From: Planoprotostelium fungivorum | Lineage: Eukaryota > Evosea > Variosea > Cavosteliida > Cavosteliaceae | Length of the DNA stretch: 22,033 nt | Reading direction: 5' to 3' | NCBI GenBank assembly: GCA_003024175.1 | Contig: MDYQ01000325.1 | Span: forward strand, 1-22,033 | Part shown: in pieces, positions 6,019 to 20,077 of the stretch | Layout of the letters: the number at the start of each line of letters is the position of its first letter | Numbering within the stretch: the stretch's first letter is position 1 | Notes under the pieces: model-generated | Told to the model about the DNA's origin: nothing | Database searches by the model: none | The model's input: the letters and a program-made list of their open reading frames with translations, nothing else | Made by a program: the position numbers and the translations under genes

Positions 6019-9000
6019 TTACTTGTTCTTTTCCTTCTTCGACTTCTTCTCCTTTTCCCTCTCTTTCTCTCTCTCCTTCTCTCTCTCCTTGGCCAGCTTT
6101 TCCAGTTGGGCTGCAGAGGGGAGATCGTTCAGACTGTTTGAAGGGGATGCGGCGGGTGATTTTTGCTGAAGGGAGTCAGTCTAAGCTTCATCATCACGAG
6201 AGATCACCTTCAGACTCATGGTGGGTACCGTTGTGTAAGCTGTTGGTGCGGGAGGATTCGAACCACTCTTCGTCTTGGTCTTCTTCTCGGCAGATGGCAG
6301 TGTGCCGTAGTTTCCTTTTCACACCGTCAGCAGTGTCAACGGCGAAGGCTCTCACCTCCAGAGGCGGCGGCTGGTGGGGTCTGTGGGGCCAATTTCTGTA
6401 TGACCATGGCTGCCAGACCCGAAGGAAGAGTTCCATAGTTGGAGGGGGACACTTGGGGAGGGGTGCCGGGGTTTGAGTTACCCATACCCGTGGACAATGC
6501 GAGATGCTGGCCTAAGCTGGGACTGGTGGCCTGTCGTCGGTCAGAGACAACATGGTCGATTCAATTCTCACTCGGTTGAAGGAACCAGCAGAAGGGAGCT
6601 CTCCGTAGTTGGAGGGGCTGGCGGGGCTGGCGGGTTCTTTGTGTGTCTCGGAGGGACTAGTCTTCGCATTGTACAGTCCCACGCTGGGTAGTGTCCCGTA
6701 GTTTGAATTCTAAGGGAATGAGAAGAAGAAGAAGAAGATAACTCACGGGAGCCTGAGGAGAGGGAGGAGGGTAAGAGCCAGGGGGAGGATAAGAGGCCAC
6801 CGGGGTGGAAGTGGAATAGAGACCTGCCGAAGGTAGAGTTCCATAGTTGCTGTCAGCGGGGGGCCTGGGTGAGGACTGCAAGAGAGAACTGGGGAGGGTT
6901 CCGTAGTTGCTCTCGGTGGGGCCTCTGGGTGATGCCGGCTGAAAGAGTGAGTGTGAGGGAGAAGAGGAGACTCACGGGAAGAGAGAGTGTAGTGGGAAGG
7001 GCTCCATAGTTACTCTCGGCTCTGGGTGATGGCTGAGGGTTGGGTGCGGCACCGCCGAGGCCGGTGAGAGTGGTGGGCAGTGATCCATAGTTGGAGGTGG
7101 GGGCTCCACCCTGTTTCTCGTCAGCGATCGATGAGGAAAGATGACCGACCGATTGAGTCAAAGAGCTAGGTAAGGTGCCGTAGTTACTCATTCCCTGGTG
7201 GAGTTAGATCGGTGAAGAAGAAAAGACTTACTTGAGATGCAGGTGCTGCACTACCGGCGCTCAACGTGGTGGGCAAGGATCCATAGTTGGACGTGGGCTG
7301 CAAATGTTATTCAAAGAAGGAGAGATAAGGTTACCTGCTGGAGTGCAGCGGTGAGATGTGTGGGAAGCGTTCCATAGTTGGATGTGGCCTGTCAGTGTTA
7401 TGGATTGAAAGTGAGATGACACACCGGCTGAGGGGCAGCGCTCAGTTGCGTGGGTAGCGTTCCGTAGTTGGATGTAGGCTGTATGAGATGAGATGAAGGA
7501 ACGAAGGAGAGAGTCACCTGGGCTGCAGATGCAAAGAGAGCGGTGGGGAGGGTACCGTAGTTCGACTGGTACGATTAGAAGTAATACAACGAGGATTAGA
7601 GGAAAGAGAAGAGAGAGAAAGAGAAGAGAGAGAAAGAGAAGAGAGAGAAAGAGAAGAGAGAGAAAGAGAAGAGAGAGAAAGAGAAGAGAGAGAAAGAGGA
7701 GAGAAAGAGGAGAGAGAAAGAGGAGAGAAAGAGGAGAGAAAGAGGAGAAAGAGAAAGAGGAGAGAAAGAGGAGAAAGAGAAAGAGGAGAGAAAGAGGAGA
7801 GAAAGAGGAGAAAGAGAAAGAGGAGAGAAGAGAGAGAGGGTCATCACCTGTGGCATAGATACGGAGGGCTTCTCAGGAGTGGGAGGAGCCTGAGAGATGG
7901 AAGATCGATCACCGCTGGAGGCCAGACTCATGGGGAGTGATCCGTAGTTAGACACTGGAGCCGCCTGAGGAGCAGAAGAGAGATGAGTGGGCAAGGTTCC
8001 ATAATTGCTTGTGGGCGTCTGCAGCTGTGAAGAATGAGAAGAGTTGAAGGTAATAAAGACATACGGGGGGTAGAGCAGCACCAGCTTTGACAGCAGATAG
8101 ATTTCCATAGTTGGGAGGATATGAACTCTGCTGTGTGTGAGAAGATGTCTATCTGTAGATGCAGAGTAGATGTCTACAGAGAGGGGTAGATGCAGAGTAG
8201 ATGTCTACAGAGAGGGGTAGATGCAGAGTAGATATGACTCACGGGGTCAGATGTGGGAGGGGGTGGTGGGGATGGTGCAGGCCCAGCGAAAGAGTTCTTG
8301 TTTACCTATTCATCATGAGATCGATTGATCAACGGATGCAACTCACAGATCCCATGAGAGATGTGGGTAGCGTTCCATAGTTGGACGTTGTCGAAGCTGA
8401 TCAGACGTGAGAAGAGAGATACGAAGAGAGAATGGACTTACCTTCTATTGCTGCACTGGGGTCGGCGTAAGTGCTACCAGAAGATCTACAGGAGATGTCA
8501 GCCACCGAAAGGACGAGAAGGAGAAGGAACATACTGTATAGACTGAGAGATGGGAGGATAAGAAGAAGCGAGAGTGTTCGGTAGGTTCGCGTACGGTGTG
8601 TGGGAAGGAATGAAAGGCTCCTCTATCTCTTTTCCGGGAGACAGAGGTGAAGGTGGTCCGTGTACCGGTGTCGTCACCTGAGCGGCCAGAGGAGGTTGAG
8701 CCTGTTCATCGTCATCACCTCCCCTCCCTCCCTCCCTCACCTGAACCTGCTCCTCTGGAATGTCTACCGTTCCGTACGAATCACGCTGGACGCGAGCTGC
8801 AGCCGATGTGGGCATGAATCCGTTGGGGCCCATGGTCACTCCAGAGAAACTGGCGTAATTTCCGGAGCTGGGTGCGTTCATGGGCTGCTGTGGGACGGCC
8901 TGTGACGTTCAATCTACAATGGAACTATCTCTGAGAGTGAAGGTGTACGGGTGTGGAATAGTACATCTGTACTGATGGGTGATGATGTCTCACCGGAGGG

Positions 9001-10707
9001 GCATTCTCTTGTCCGGTGACGTGTCTCTGGTAGTTGGGATTCAGCTCGAAAGTCAGATTGGAGCAGGGAGTCTTCAAAATGTCCTTCAGCTCTGTCGTGA
9101 GCTCCACCAGACTCGAATAGATTCTCGGCTTTCCATCGAACTTGTAACCGTTGGGTACCGTCTCCAATAGCCCGTGCTTGACTGGAAATGTCAGTGGAAT
9201 CTACAGAGTGGGTTACCTGTCTTGTTGTTGACGTAGGATATGGCCAGACAGCCGGGTGTTGTACTGAAACGTACAAGGTAAGTGCCGTTGTCTGAATTGG
9301 CGAGCATCTCATCGGCTGTGAAGAGATGAGAGGGAGGACGATAGGACGTTCACCTTCGGCAGATGTCAGATCACCGTGGAACCAACTGAGTCGAGATAAA
9401 TCAGAGCGCAGTGTGAACTTGAGCAGGTAGTTGTAAAAGTCCACCACCTGATGAAAAAGAGTGAGTACAAAAGATGAGATGAGATGAGATGAGAAAAAGA
9501 GAATATAAGAAGAGAAGATAATACAAGATCAGAAGAGAAGAGAAAATGAGATGAAAAGAGAAGAAGACCTCATAGAGAGAAGCGAAGAGTCTTCCTCTAG
9601 CATTCCTCTGGTAAGCTTCCTCGATCTTGAAACCAGAAGGAGGAGCACATGCGATGAGGGTGTGTGTGATCTTCGGTTTCGCCTCTCCCTCGACGTAACC
9701 TACGATATCAACAGAGTCATCCACAGTCAACTCACCTATGGCAAAGGATCCCGGCTTGGACTTTGAGAAACGGATCAAGAAGGTACCGCATGGTTGCTTC
9801 TCTAACAGCTTCTCCGTCTCTGCTGAAGAGAGAAATCCGTGAAACCATTCTGCGTTCAAGATGCCCTCGACCTGTTCAAATGTTCATTCTCTTCGATGAC
9901 AATTGACTTTGTCATGTGGGAGGGTGGATGAGATGATGCCCTCACCTTCTCCAGACAGTTCTTTAGTGGACCGAAACCGTTGAGGAAATCGGAGAATCTG
10001 TACATGCTGAGGAAGCCAGTGTTGCTGTTGTCTAAGATGTATTGCAGGTGTCCCGATGATGTGGCATCTAAGGGTAGAGTCTGTTTCAAGGCGGTGATGA
10101 AACGATCCCAGCTGATGATGAAGGCCTGGAATCATTCAACGATTACCCGCCAAAGACTTGTCTCACCTGCTCAAAGTTGTTTTCCCAGAACACTCTCGCA
10201 TCGTCATCTCTGAAGCACTGAGTCAGTTTGTCCAGTTCGGATGTGTATGGAGGGCTGTCTTTCGTCTTCTTCGTTGTCACATTCTTCTTGGCACTCTTGC
10301 ATTTCGAAAGCAGCTCGATGTAAATGTCGGTGGCTTCCTTGTAGATCTGTGTGTTAATGTGGTCCAGTCTCTTCCTGACACGATTGCTGGTGAAGAAACG
10401 AAGGAATCTAAGAGATTTAATACGTCAGAATCGAAAGGAGGATAGGTTTCACTCACTTTCCGATGGTGACGAGCTCCTCTAAAAACTCAGAGTACTCGAC
10501 CATAACGATTTCCAGCTGTTTCGCTTCGTTCGTGACCGAGGGACGGAAAGCACTCTTGGTGTTCAAGTAATCTGATAGCACGGATATCATAAACTTGATA
10601 GTGGTGGTGAACTCGGCTACATCTACAGTTGCTTTCTTGGAATCCAAGATAGACAGAACCTTTTCGGCTCTCTGCTTAGCGTTCACTAATCGTTTCTTAG
10701 AGGACAT
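6019..10707 (-). CDS. Cbl-like TKB head + second SH2 domain + poly-[SG]NYGxLP tail; 25 exons, ~1081 aa
   Basis: Phosphotyrosine adaptor. Residues ~1-150 form a helical region. About 160-225 resemble the EF-hand of the Cbl tyrosine-kinase-binding domain (WDRFITALKQ, YILDNSNTGFLS, FLNGFGPLKNC). About 232-310 are SH2-1 (WFHGFLSSAE, GTFLIRFS with the phosphotyrosine-binding Arg, PGSFAIGYV as in Cbl). About 333-430 are SH2-2 (SWFHGDLTSAE, GTYLVRFSTTPG). The tail (~440-1081) is Pro/Ser/Ala-rich and holds 16 [SG]NYG[TSAE]LP motifs plus degenerate ones (YANLP, NYGNLS, SYGTV), ending in a charged KEREKEREK helix. I see no RING or kinase domain. All 25 exons join in frame: 10457-10707, 10167-10407, 9946-10125, 9736-9871, 9569-9699, 9354-9447, 9217-9315, 8994-9181, 8741-8899, 8535-8701, 8442-8485, 8347-8396, 8243-8305, 8065-8130, 7848-8024, 7518-7565, 7425-7478, 7335-7388, 7232-7297, 6976-7194, 6747-6938, 6572-6709, 6356-6530, 6208-6314, 6019-6165. 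Confidence 0.88.
7598..7840. repeat. 243-nt uninterrupted homopurine tract inside an intron
   Basis: Every base on the plus strand is A or G. The 5' half is about seven copies of a 15-mer (gagaagagagagaaa); the rest is GAGGAGAAA-type degenerate units. It lies in the 282-nt intron 7566-7847 of the SH2 gene, so in the transcript it is an extreme polypyrimidine tract in front of the acceptor. Confidence 0.95.
8156..8233. repeat. 31-bp minisatellite (2.5 copies) in an intron of the SH2 gene
   Basis: Two perfect copies of a 31-bp unit starting tagatgcagagtagatgtct (8156-8186 and 8187-8217) are followed by a 16-bp partial copy. All lie within the intron 8131-8242. No coding role is seen. Confidence 0.9.
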
Positions 10708-11250
10708 CTTGCTCCTGCAACCAAGATGATGATGATCCGAGTGCTACCCGAGTGAGACAAGGAGAATTTCCATTTGACAGATTTTCTATATCAAGCCAAC
10801 GAATATGGTTTCTCTTTCTTTGCGGAGCTCAACTGACGAACCTTCAATGCTCGTCAGGCCCTCGCTCTCTCATCCTCTCTTACCCCTATTCATCATCGAA
10901 CAGCACCATCGCCACTGCAATCAAGTGTTCCTCAATGTCTCTCATGAGATCTTCACAAACACAAGTCACCCTAGAAAAGCTGCACTCTTCAATTCGTGGA
11001 GGTATATGGCCACAGAGGGTGAGAGTGGAATGTGTGACGATATTGCAAGTAAATGCTCTCAAATATTGCGCTGCAACGTACACTGCCTCTTTAGGCGAAA
11101 ATAACTGTGAGGCGAATAGATTCGCATTCGCAGATTTCATCCCGACCGGTTGGCGGCGGAGAAGAAAGAACATCGCAGAGGTCGAGAGCATCCAGGGCCT
11201 GAACTGATCGATCGGGTGGAAGAGAGCGGCCATAGACTTTCAGATACAAT
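10708..11250. other. Intergenic region between divergent SH2 gene and Rab1
   Basis: This 543-bp stretch separates two divergent start codons and should hold both promoters. A TATA-like run (ttttctatatcaa) lies near 10783-10795. It also contains long overlapping open frames on both strands, including a 115-codon minus-strand frame at 10883-11233, but none shows a recognisable domain or splice pattern, and that frame's ATG would sit only 17 bp from the Rab1 ATG. I do not call a gene here. Confidence 0.5.
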
Positions 11251-12073
<823 letters not shown>

Positions 12074-16825: not shown

Positions 16826-17071
16826 GGCGGAGACGGCATCACACCATTGCAAACCTGGGCTTTCCAGACCGGTATTCAGAACCGTCACATGCATGATGTC
16901 CACTGTCGCTTAGGTGAGGGGAAATAATTGGTATTCACATAAATTGGACCGGGCGCTCAGGGGATGATGTAGCGGGAAGATACTCATGAGGACGATGCCA
17001 GCCACAGCAAGGAACCAGAGGAAGAAGAAGATAGTCAGATTGAGCAGCCTAAACTGCCAAATGAGCGCCAT
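16826..17071 (-). CDS. Candidate membrane protein exons (hypothetical)
   Basis: Exon 16939-17071 starts at an ATG and reads MALIWQFRLLNLTIFFFLWF, then LAVAGIVLMSIFPLHHPLSA, a strong transmembrane segment. A 36-nt intron 16903-16938 (gtgaat...cgacag) joins in frame to 16826-16902 (DIMHVTVLNTGLESPGLQWC then DAVSA), which ends at a good donor (gtaag, 16825). The open frame extends upstream of the ATG to a possible acceptor (gttgtacag), so the gene may begin further up, where another hydrophobic minus-strand frame lies at 17300-17560. If the next acceptor is 16780, a stop follows two codons later. Function unknown; a multi-pass receptor or transporter is only a guess. Confidence 0.35.
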
Positions 17072-17137
17072 CTCAACGCATTCAAAGAGAGAAAGTATAT
17101 TCTGATACTGTACAACACAGTGGAGGATGATCTGCAC

Positions 17138-17836
17138 CGAGAATTCATTATAATATCACGTACACCTATAGATCTGTGTACGAAATTTCATGGAAAATGG
17201 ACCGCCTATAGTGGAGATCTGAATATCGTATTCCATTTTTGATACGTATTCCACTTTGAAAACGTTTTTGTTGCAAAATACGTGTTCCTTTCAACAAATG
17301 AAAACGTTGCTCGTCCACCCACTCTCAACTGCTGAGTGTGGAAACGATGTTATCCATGTGAGTGATAGTAACACGAGAGGGGAGAGATAATGAAGATAGA
17401 GCAGAGGAAGAGGAGTGACCGGAGGACTGTCATACATCTCGTCCATGGGCATGTTCCACACTCTCGTCGTACCAAAGAAGGTAAATACCACAACAACCAT
17501 ATAACGTAGCGTGATTCCACTGTATTGAATGTCCAGTAATTTACTGTCCTGGACTCTTCTGGTGCACACCTGTCTGTGTGTAACGCAAGATCTGGTGCGG
17601 AGGAGGCAGGAATGCTCATTTCGAAAACTTGTGCTAATACGCGGACATACGGGCACGTTATATGATTCTTGCGCCCTCTTGTTTAGACTTAGTAGAAGAG
17701 AGCTGAATACGAGATCTTTGTCATGGAAGGAGAGGCGATGGATGTGAAGATAAAAGGACTCTCTTGCATCGTACAACACCCTACGTGGATCGAGAGAATG
17801 AATTACACATGGTGAGATCGTAATTTCAATTGACAG
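17138..17836. other. Unassigned region upstream of the kinase fragment
   Basis: 17150-17290 is AT-rich with a short direct repeat (cgtattccattttt / cgtattccactttg) and looks intergenic. 17300-17800 contains a minus-strand frame that is open for 263 codons overall, hydrophobic in its last third (RYMVVVVFTFFG, PLLYLHYLSPLVLL), part of which may be coding. On the plus strand a fragment MDVKIKGLSCIVQH near 17740 recalls a kinase DFG region without the DFG. Confidence 0.3.
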
Positions 17837-18042
17837 TCGACTACAGAGTACAGGCACCAGAAATTGCGCGAGAGAAGCGATACAACGGCAGCGAGCACAT
17901 CTACAGTATAGGTGTGCTGCTGTGGACGATGTACACAGACAATCATCACTTGTACAACGCAGAAATAAACGACAAGGGCATCTATTTCGTGATAGAAGCC
18001 ATGATGCCCGGACACAAGAGGCAAGAGACCGAGCCTGAATGA
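17837..18042 (+). pseudogene. Fragment of a protein kinase C-lobe
   Basis: After an acceptor-like cag at 17836 the frame reads VDYRVQAPEIAREKRYNGSE, then HIYSIGVLLWTMYTD, matching kinase subdomains VIII-IX (APE motif; D.YSFGVLLWEM.T of TKL and tyrosine kinases, here with H for the conserved D). The frame stops at 18040-18042 after EAMMPGHKRQETEPE, too early for a full C-lobe. No catalytic loop (HRDLKxxN) or DFG is visible upstream. I interpret it as a remnant of a kinase gene; it could be one exon of a split pseudokinase whose other exons I failed to recognise. Confidence 0.5.
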
Positions 18043-18144
18043 GCTGAACGACAAGGTGAAGCCGCAGATCGCCTACGAGCACAGACAGCTGGATGCAGAA
18101 TGAAAGTGTATTCCTCGTCTATTTTCTAATCCCATCACGTATCT

Positions 18145-19549
18145 TCAATCCAGATAAACTTGCAGCGGTTCTGCATCCGTGACCACCCTGCACACGGGGC
18201 AAGTGTTTTTCACCGCCGAGCACTGAACGCAACTCTTGCAAAAGATGTGACCGCAGCTGAGCACGAACCTTCTCTCCTCCTCCATGCAGATCTGACACGT
18301 CATCTTCTCTAACTCCTCCTCCAACTTCTTCTCCTTGTCTCTCAGCTCCTTCTTAGCCTCTTCGCAGTCGCTCCTGCTGCTCTCGAGCTTTCTCGTGATG
18401 TCCTTCATCGCGTCTTCTTTCTCTGCAACGGTGGAGTTTAATTCGAGGATGCGACGAGAGCTTTCTCTCAGTTTGTCCTCTACGGCCCTCTGCTGCTCTT
18501 CTAACGTGGAAACCTTGGCATCTTTCTGTTGGATGACTCCTTGTGATTCTCTCTCTCTGTCTTTTGCTTCTTTCAGTTCGAGTTCGATGCGTTGCAAGAG
18601 ATCTTCGTACTGGTCGCGGGCCTTCTCTGTCTTCTCGATCACGTTTGCATGAGAGAGATCGATTGGCTTGCTCCCTTCGGCGTAAGTCAACTGAGATTGG
18701 ACTGTTATATGGGCTGCGACCTGAGGAACTTCCTCGATGATCTTCTGTCCAGCGTCTTGGTCGTAACGGACCTAGGAGATGATGAGGACAGAGGACATTG
18801 TGTGCAGTGAGGATACAAGATAAAGGAAGATGAGATGCACCTGAACGACACCCAATTTGGTGCCTTCGCTCTGAGCCTTTTTGGCTCTCGCCGCCGCTCT
18901 CCTCTGAGCCCTCGATTTCTTGTTGGCCTCTCTGATAAGCATCCGCCCTTCGTTCCACTGCTCCACGAAGAATCTCGGATTAGAATAGAGGTTGAGAGCG
19001 TCCACGTTGTTTTCCATGTAAGGATTGACTCTGCTGAAACTGGGAGGCTTTTCCGCGCGACCATACGTTTGATTGATGGAATTGGTGCGGTTATCCTTTG
19101 TGAACAGCTGGGCTCCTTCATTTGTCGCCGACGCGAAGGTCCTTCGGGGATTGCTTAATAGAACCTCGGTTGAAGATTTCACGAGCGTATCTTCCACGGT
19201 GGGCTGCAGATGCGTTATGACGTGGAAGTGTTAACCTCGCCGAGGCGCTCACTAGAAGTTGGAGTGCGTCCTGAACTCTGCCTCTCAATGTCTCGACTCT
19301 CTGATGAGTCGTTGATGCCTCTTTGACGATCTCACTGAAGATGTGACTGGCGAAGGAGCACAGAGAGGCCATATGCTCGATGCAGACCACCAGAGATCCT
19401 TGGACCGCCGCATCAGACAAGTTTGCGGGGGTGGCTGTTGCCGGATTGCCTAGGAAGATGGGTGCATCTCCCCTGCAAAGAGTATAACCTGCATACTTGA
19501 TCACGAACCTGAATACTCAGCAGTGAGCCTGCGAACCTGAAAGAGGCAT
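18145..19549 (-). CDS. SCAR/WAVE homology domain fused to a coiled coil and C3HC4 RING finger, 4 exons, 412 aa
   Basis: Residues 1-195 resemble the N-terminal WAVE homology domain that docks into the WAVE regulatory complex. The start is MPL as in WAVE1; NLSDAAVQGSLVVCIEHMAS with SFASHIFSEIVKEA and HQRVETLRGRV matches the [20 protein letters not shown] / RVNSLQERV region; RRTFASATNEGAQLF matches KAFRSSTIQDQQLF; ALNLYSNPRFFVEQWNE matches GLKFYTNPSYFFDLWKE, followed by a basic KK/RR run. Instead of the Pro-rich region and VCA Arp2/3 activator come ~130 residues of Glu/Lys-rich coiled coil and a RING: C363, C366, C377, H379, C382, C385, C395, C398 (CQIC...CGHIFCKSC...CPVC), typical of E3 ligases. 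Exons: 19537-19549 (13 nt), 19253-19488, 18841-19203, 18145-18771; every junction keeps the frame. No ATG precedes the coiled coil in exon 4, arguing for one gene. Confidence 0.8.
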
Positions 19550-20077
19550 TGAGCCGCCGTCATCGGCTGTGAGAGTCTGGTATGATTCTGATTAGGACTT
19601 GAAGATGGTATCGCCAGGGCAGGTGCCGGTTTCCACGAATTGAGAAGTGTTGTCTTCGCTAAAGTCGCCCGGAAGTCCATTTGAATGAGTTTCATCTCTT
19701 CAATGCTAGAGGAACGATCCACGAATGAAACAGTTGAACAACAAGTGAAGAGAGCATATAGATCTATTATGAAATACCAAACCGCATGTCACCTCTCGCT
19801 CGCTGCCGTCTAATGATTATGAAGATGACTCCGTACAACTTATGGAGATGCTATTGGCAGGGAGTTGATCTTCTCCTTGTTGTATACCTGAACACCGTTC
19901 TCATGGGGGCTGTCGGCCCTCCTGTTTAAGGTGGAGGGTTACCGTGGAATTCAAAATACAACTCTGACGAACGAAACCCGCATCTGCAATTTTTTGTCCT
20001 CGAGCACCTCGAGCCCCCTTTTGGGTTGGTACAAAATGAATGGCGATTCCATGTCTCCTCATCAAAGGCTGATGCAT
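19550..20077. other. Intergenic region between WAVE-RING and adenosine kinase
   Basis: This holds the adenosine kinase 3'UTR and the WAVE-RING promoter/5'UTR. A 73-codon minus frame (19501-19722) overlaps the WAVE-RING start region and is not supported as coding. I see no RNA gene or other element. Confidence 0.4.

Follow-up and report, generated by a model that had tools for sequence, protein, structure and literature searches.

The window analyzed here is the whole of contig C286 (22,033 bases) of the Planoprotostelium fungivorum assembly (36.9 Mb, 471 contigs). Its minus strand carries a gene in whose spliced frame a SCAR/WAVE N-terminal region is followed by a coiled coil and, at the C-terminus, a RING finger, with a fragment of a transporter exon just upstream of its start codon. 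The features are given below; C103 is the contig that holds the related SCAR gene PROFUN_12258, which encodes protein P0002.

19553 to 19705, plus strand: decayed exon fragment of an ATM1/ABCB7-type transporter, antisense to the fusion gene (85% to C103:38889-39051)
18145 to 19549, minus strand: SCAR/WAVE-coiled coil-RING fusion gene from its ATG through the stop codon (412 codons, open once spliced)
19537 to 19549, minus strand: exon 1, MPLS plus one nucleotide (spliced frame; the paralog protein P0002 starts MPLSGYTLRRGDAP)
19489 to 19536, minus strand: intron 1, 48 nt, GT-AG (spliced frame; C103 comparison)
19253 to 19488, minus strand: exon 2, where the WAVE homology domain begins (spliced frame; WAVE1 match; paralog alignment)
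19204 to 19252, minus strand: intron 2, 49 nt, GT-AG (spliced frame; C103 comparison)
18841 to 19203, minus strand: exon 3, remaining WAVE homology and meander region and a basic stretch (spliced frame; WAVE1 match)
18772 to 18840, minus strand: intron 3, 69 nt, GT-AG (spliced frame; C103 comparison)
18145 to 18771, minus strand: exon 4, SCAR-derived part, coiled coil and RING in one open frame (spliced frame)
18640 to 18771, minus strand: portion of exon 4 that derives from SCAR, residues 205-248 with SHANV at the end (alignment to P0002 and C103 DNA)
18639 to 18640, minus strand: fusion junction within the exon (the C103 paralog is matched as far as 18641-18640)
18304 to 18639, minus strand: coiled coil, residues 249-360 (heptad register analysis; long helix in the AlphaFold model)
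18190 to 18297, minus strand: C3HC4 RING, residues 363-398, followed by Arg399 (zinc-ligand spacing; Pfam; structure-sequence matches)

The in-frame four-exon gene that a sequence-only reading of this DNA had described is borne out: 412 codons run uninterrupted across three GT-AG introns, and all three splice-site pairs are also present in the C103 paralog DNA. The NCBI model PROFUN_15199 (P0001, 457 aa) represents the product of this gene and has the same sequence from GNPATATP onwards; our frame begins with MPLSGYTL, a start that it has in common with P0002. The same reading was wrong in stating that no internal ATG would allow the RING part to be a separate gene, since exon 4 contains in-frame ATGs at 18408, 18303 and 18285, the first of which could start an 87-residue coiled-coil/RING fragment. 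With these codons available the locus might yield both a truncated SCAR fragment and a short coiled coil-RING protein initiated at 18408; we consider this improbable, as the 77 codons between the fusion junction and that ATG are open and lie within a coiled coil of one register. A model in which the RING occupies a separate exon, reached only via a guessed intron, was rejected, because the junction sits inside exon 4.

The assignment of the N-terminus as a WAVE homology domain (WHD) is supported by comparison with solved WAVE complexes, in which residues 32-184 of the fusion match WAVE1 (3p8c_D, E 1.1e-15); the first 31 residues lie outside this match, and three distinct WAVE1 sequences are matched with E values of 1.1e-15 to 5.5e-15. 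The relationship to the C103 SCAR gene is far closer, with the same residue encoded at 216 of 246 aligned codons. A chance likeness to SCAR was rejected on the strength of the WAVE1 match (E about 1e-15) and of this 88% identical paralog. The family PF27560 is listed by the protein database for both the fusion and the C103 protein and is absent from direct Pfam scans. The AlphaFold model of the NCBI protein P0001, a poor one built on a two-sequence alignment (mean pLDDT 51.5), does not confirm the WHD.

At the DNA level, positions 18641-19552 of the window are 87.8% identical to PROFUN_12258 with introns included, and judged from this alignment the fusion is a duplicate of the C103 SCAR gene made at the DNA level, its introns copied along with its exons. 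The SCAR-derived sequence continues for 44 codons past the 18772-18840 intron into exon 4 and ends at SHANV; beyond this point the fusion frame passes directly into the coiled coil, whereas the C103 gene enters a proline-rich region. An artefactual junction, created by the assembler joining a SCAR copy to a RING gene at 18640, deserves consideration in a small 22-kb contig with dispersed repeats nearby. We nevertheless regard it as highly improbable: the SCAR part differs by about 12% in DNA from the C103 gene and is thus a copy in its own right, the reading frame continues across a junction that lies inside an exon, and the coiled coil/RING sequence has no second DNA copy among the genome matches listed.

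The absence of a VCA region from the fusion, also claimed from the sequence alone, is supported. When the whole C103 protein P0002 was compared with the window by tblastn, allowing E up to 10, matches were confined to its first 253 residues, among them two further pieces at chance level (E 1.8 and 7.0), and this search thus detected no VCA remnant in the window. The proline-rich region is likewise absent from the spliced fusion product, and the same search found none in the window. The tail of the C103 protein matches the WAVE1 VCA (E 2.3e-5), while the post-junction part of the fusion matches RING proteins among solved structures, with no WASP/WAVE chain among the best 60 of 67 matches. The Pfam WH2 profile scores even the C103 tail below threshold (13.9 bits against a cut-off of 23.1) and was therefore set aside as evidence on VCA loss; C103, C347 and C286 are all missing from the 10 matches of the genome-wide WH2 search. 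Two of the contigs in that search, C298 and C303, carry WH2 matches with the same score in open frames of the same length and are possibly a duplicated stretch or two haplotypes. A separate canonical SCAR, for which the earlier reading had suggested searching other amoebozoan genomes, exists in this genome as PROFUN_12258, and a second SCAR gene lies on C347 (C347:1-6000; 38% identity to the fusion over 104 residues). By eye, the C347 SCAR has a WH2-like motif and a similarly acidic end. The gene is thus a SCAR duplicate with no recognisable VCA, in which the WAVE homology domain is followed by a coiled coil and a RING finger.

The C-terminal coiled coil and C3HC4 RING proposed from the sequence alone were both recovered. 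Residues 249-360 contain no proline and one glycine, are 54% charged, and have hydrophobic residues at 59% of the a/d positions in the best heptad register, compared with 41% in the next best. The two-sequence AlphaFold model renders this segment as a single long helix (pLDDT 76-88, averaged over 10 residues); the helix runs into the first RING cysteines, to P0001 residue 421, pLDDT is below 50 from 418 on, and the RING fold is not confirmed by the model. The RING has all eight zinc ligands in C3HC4 spacing and exceeds the cut-off of three Pfam models (PF13920, PF13639 and PF13445; for PF13920, E 9.8e-7 and 28.9 bits against a cut-off of 27). Its closest sequences among solved structures are RNF4, RNF125, RNF141 and the IAP RINGs. 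Arg399 directly follows the last zinc-ligand cysteine, forming a CPxCR end, and occupies what we take to be the linchpin position.

With RNF4, RNF125, RNF141 and E3 ligases of the PF13920 type such as IAP and MYLIP, the fusion has in common a RING near the C-terminus and the CPxCR end, and presumably a tail resembling those of IAP and MYLIP; it differs from them in having a WHD as its targeting part, and no close relative of its coiled coil/RING was found. At the protein level the best other match in the genome is 38% over 95 residues, in an open frame on C99 that by eye resembles an ankyrin-RING protein. A DNA search with positions 16900-18660 of the window gave at least 46 non-self matches, all within 17998-16900 and none listed in the RING part. 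The parent of the coiled coil/RING part was thus not found, as the best other match is 38% and no DNA copy was seen, and this part appears to be single-copy as far as the genome was searched.

The sequence on the upstream side of the gene bears on both its annotation and its expression. In C103, 1,513 bases separate the start of SCAR from an ATM1/ABCB7-type transporter exon; this stretch is missing in the window, where the 153-base remnant of that exon starts 3 bp upstream of the fusion ATG. A hand-joined reading of the C103 transporter matches ATM1 structures (E 7.6e-17), and a Pfam scan of the same piece returned no match. We take the C103 order to be ancestral because its transporter reads coherently across the breakpoint. 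The remnant has decayed: its longer exon piece has changes in 6 of 28 codons (four replacements, one in-frame deletion and one stop), the shorter one preceding it in 1 of 6, and the probable splice donor site is lost. The longer N-terminus of PROFUN_15199 was rejected as functional sequence, being mostly this exon fragment read backwards, and the extra N-terminus of the NCBI model is probably wrong. Since the parental 5' flank is missing, the parental SCAR promoter has probably been lost from the fusion gene, to judge from the C103 comparison.

A duplicate of an intact SCAR gene that has lost its upstream region has a serious rival explanation as a non-expressed chimera: a segmental copy without function or promoter, still open and drifting towards a pseudogene. 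We think this rather unlikely, and evidence of several kinds has to be weighed. Only 3 bp of the C103 upstream-side sequence remain before the fusion ATG, with the decayed ATM1 fragment beyond, and on the downstream side 16900-17998 is a mosaic of dispersed repeats, all of which suits such a copy. Against it stand the preservation of every splice site and every RING ligand and the pattern of divergence from C103, in which exon indels are in-frame only (3 and 18 nt), with intron indels of 1 and 4 nt.

Over the 246 shared codons, dN and dS between the fusion and C103 are 0.063 and 0.239 by NG86 and 0.068 and 0.188 by YN00. Omega is 0.26, with a bootstrap range of 0.15-0.42 (300 samples) whose upper bound also argues against a functionless duplicate; the count excludes one gapped codon, six codons that only the paralog has where exon 4 begins, and the final codon of the shared part. 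Residues differ at 30 of the 246 codons, and nucleotide differences fall 15, 16 and 38 times at codon positions one, two and three. Constraint is uneven along the frame: codons 1-83 (exons 1-2) have dN 0.022 and dS 0.314, with four amino-acid differences from the paralog, and codons 161-205 are weakly constrained (dN 0.127, dS 0.181). In the introns just 18 of 161 sites differ, so that the neutral rate may be below dS.

The first SCAR block has changed less than the adjoining ATM1 remnant (4 of 83 codons against 6 of 28, Fisher p 0.016; against 7 of 34, p 0.014; both post hoc and uncorrected); for the whole SCAR part (30 of 246) the corresponding p values are 0.23 against 6 of 28 and 0.18 against 7 of 34. 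When changes are polarised with C347 and WAVE1 as outgroups, 9 fall on the fusion and 6 on the paralog, with 15 more without polarity, a slight excess on the fusion that favours drift; of the 35 columns common to C347 and WAVE1, 21 are conserved in the fusion and likewise 21 in the paralog. The 412-codon frame was also evolved neutrally, with substitutions only and at a set divergence on the fusion branch, and 24% of the simulated frames were stop-free at a divergence of 0.03. At 0.06 the figure was 7%, and the SCAR part gained about 31 residue changes (21-41) on the fusion branch, comparable to the 30 observed over both branches; at 0.12, a value that tells against a functionless copy, 0.4% were stop-free and 57 changes (45-70) accrued. 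These comparisons suggest purifying selection on the SCAR part, with the paralog branch contributing to the signal. They also suggest function on the fusion branch, where neutral drift is compatible with the data at the divergence rate of the introns.

For the reading that we prefer, in which the gene is functional, we propose a model that we consider about evenly balanced between right and wrong: a species- or lineage-specific chimeric gene encoding a decoy for the WAVE slot with an E3 ligase tail, which would dampen the Rac-SCAR-Arp2/3 pathway. As shown above, a SCAR/WAVE gene was copied as DNA, introns and all; the copy has lost its proline-rich and VCA part, and exon 4 continues without a break in the frame into sequence for a coiled coil and C-terminal RING. 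With the WHD and meander retained, the product may take the place of SCAR on the Sra1/Nap1/Abi/HSPC300 shell, and the resulting complex would be unable to activate Arp2/3. The coiled coil/RING, acting as an E3, might then ubiquitylate the complex, the competing SCAR, or itself, and the net effect would be negative regulation of the pathway in the manner of NHSL1 with an added enzymatic tail. A more specific version, which we hold as a tentative and on balance unlikely extension, is a gene-encoded device for targeted degradation, in which a SCAR decoy with its own E3 would remove or switch off the Rac-responsive complex.

With SCAR/WAVE proteins (PROFUN_12258 and WAVE1) the fusion has in common the WAVE homology domain, meander, basic region and intron positions, and it differs from them in having a coiled coil and RING where a recognisable proline-rich region and VCA are absent. 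Its WHD derives directly from a SCAR gene, which sets it apart from the NHS/NHSL1 family, whose members have C-termini of other kinds. We treat that family as a functional analogue, with a WHD and no Arp2/3-activating part. The WHD embeds WAVE in its complex (PMC10272187), and NHSL1, which has a WHD and no Arp2/3-activating role, is described as replacing WAVE in a WAVE Shell Complex and inhibiting migration persistence (PMC10272187, PMC11696792). By this analogy the most likely role of the fusion would be that of a VCA-less occupant of the WAVE slot bringing putative E3 activity, and such an occupant, recruiting ubiquitylation without activating Arp2/3, is plausible with NHSL1 as a half-precedent. 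As the meander is retained, a larger share of the WAVE contact surface may survive in the fusion than in the WHD of NHSL1. WAVE2 displaces the NHSL1 WHD and the reverse displacement does not occur (PMC10272187). NHSL3, which also has a WHD-like region, forms no WAVE Shell Complex (PMC11696792), so a WHD alone would be no guarantee of complex entry.

Among complex partners, an HSPC300-like exon was found in the genome (50% over 45 residues, E 1.2e-5), with one TGA inside the aligned stretch. An Abi_HHR profile search of the genome gave no match, and the control genomes were equally silent. At the position of the WAVE1 lysine that we take to be the counterpart of WAVE2 Lys45, the fusion and C103 have serine and C347 has lysine; the site is thus absent from the fusion and its parent, and the C347 SCAR could carry it. 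WAVE2 is a further precedent: it is ubiquitylated at Lys45 in the WHD, and loss of the VCA raises WAVE2 ubiquitylation and lowers its level (PMC5362955).

If expressed, the gene would encode an occupant of the WAVE slot derived straight from a SCAR gene, its actin-activating end swapped for a ubiquitin-ligase module. Shell complexes of the NHSL1 kind would then have a counterpart in an amoeba, the WAVE complex would be physically linked to ubiquitylation, and a young gene fusion would have produced a dominant-negative regulator. P. fungivorum crawls and engulfs fungi, and the degradation device, if real, would give it a means of removing or switching off its Rac-responsive complex. Since the parent gene persists at about 88% DNA identity, both origin and function are directly testable.

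Other departures from the standard architecture appear in a survey of WASP-family evolution, which describes Trichomonas WAVE homologs with coiled coils (PMC3298513). The S-WASP and short WAML proteins of the same survey are WASP-family members in which all or part of the VCA is missing; they resemble the fusion in this and differ in being WASP- or IMD-based rather than WHD-based; the word RING does not occur in the text of PMC3298513. No report of a WAVE-RING fusion was found among the literature matches listed, which comprise titles and abstract openings with subscription journals mostly outside, and none of this fusion among the P. fungivorum matches listed. Searches of a protein collection (7996 and 1134 candidates scored) returned only the two P. 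fungivorum proteins, and one with 5 candidates scored returned the fusion itself only; the former were insensitive, missing WAVE1-type proteins (61 bits) too, and absence of the fusion in other species is therefore not shown by them.

The remainder of the window holds several further features. The mosaic at 16900-17998 consists of dispersed repeats common to many contigs, and partly beyond these repeats, at about 17840-18040 on the plus strand, lies what by eye is a protein-kinase-like fragment. On the minus strand, frames at 6600-8400 contain an NYGxLP motif 14 times, adjoining a GAGAGG-rich simple repeat seen by eye at about 7600-7840, and exons at 8914-10743 resemble, again by eye, a STAT protein with an SH2 domain. 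A Rab-type small GTPase gene occupies 11264-12073 (Pfam Ras, E 4.9e-35 on the frame 11594-12073).
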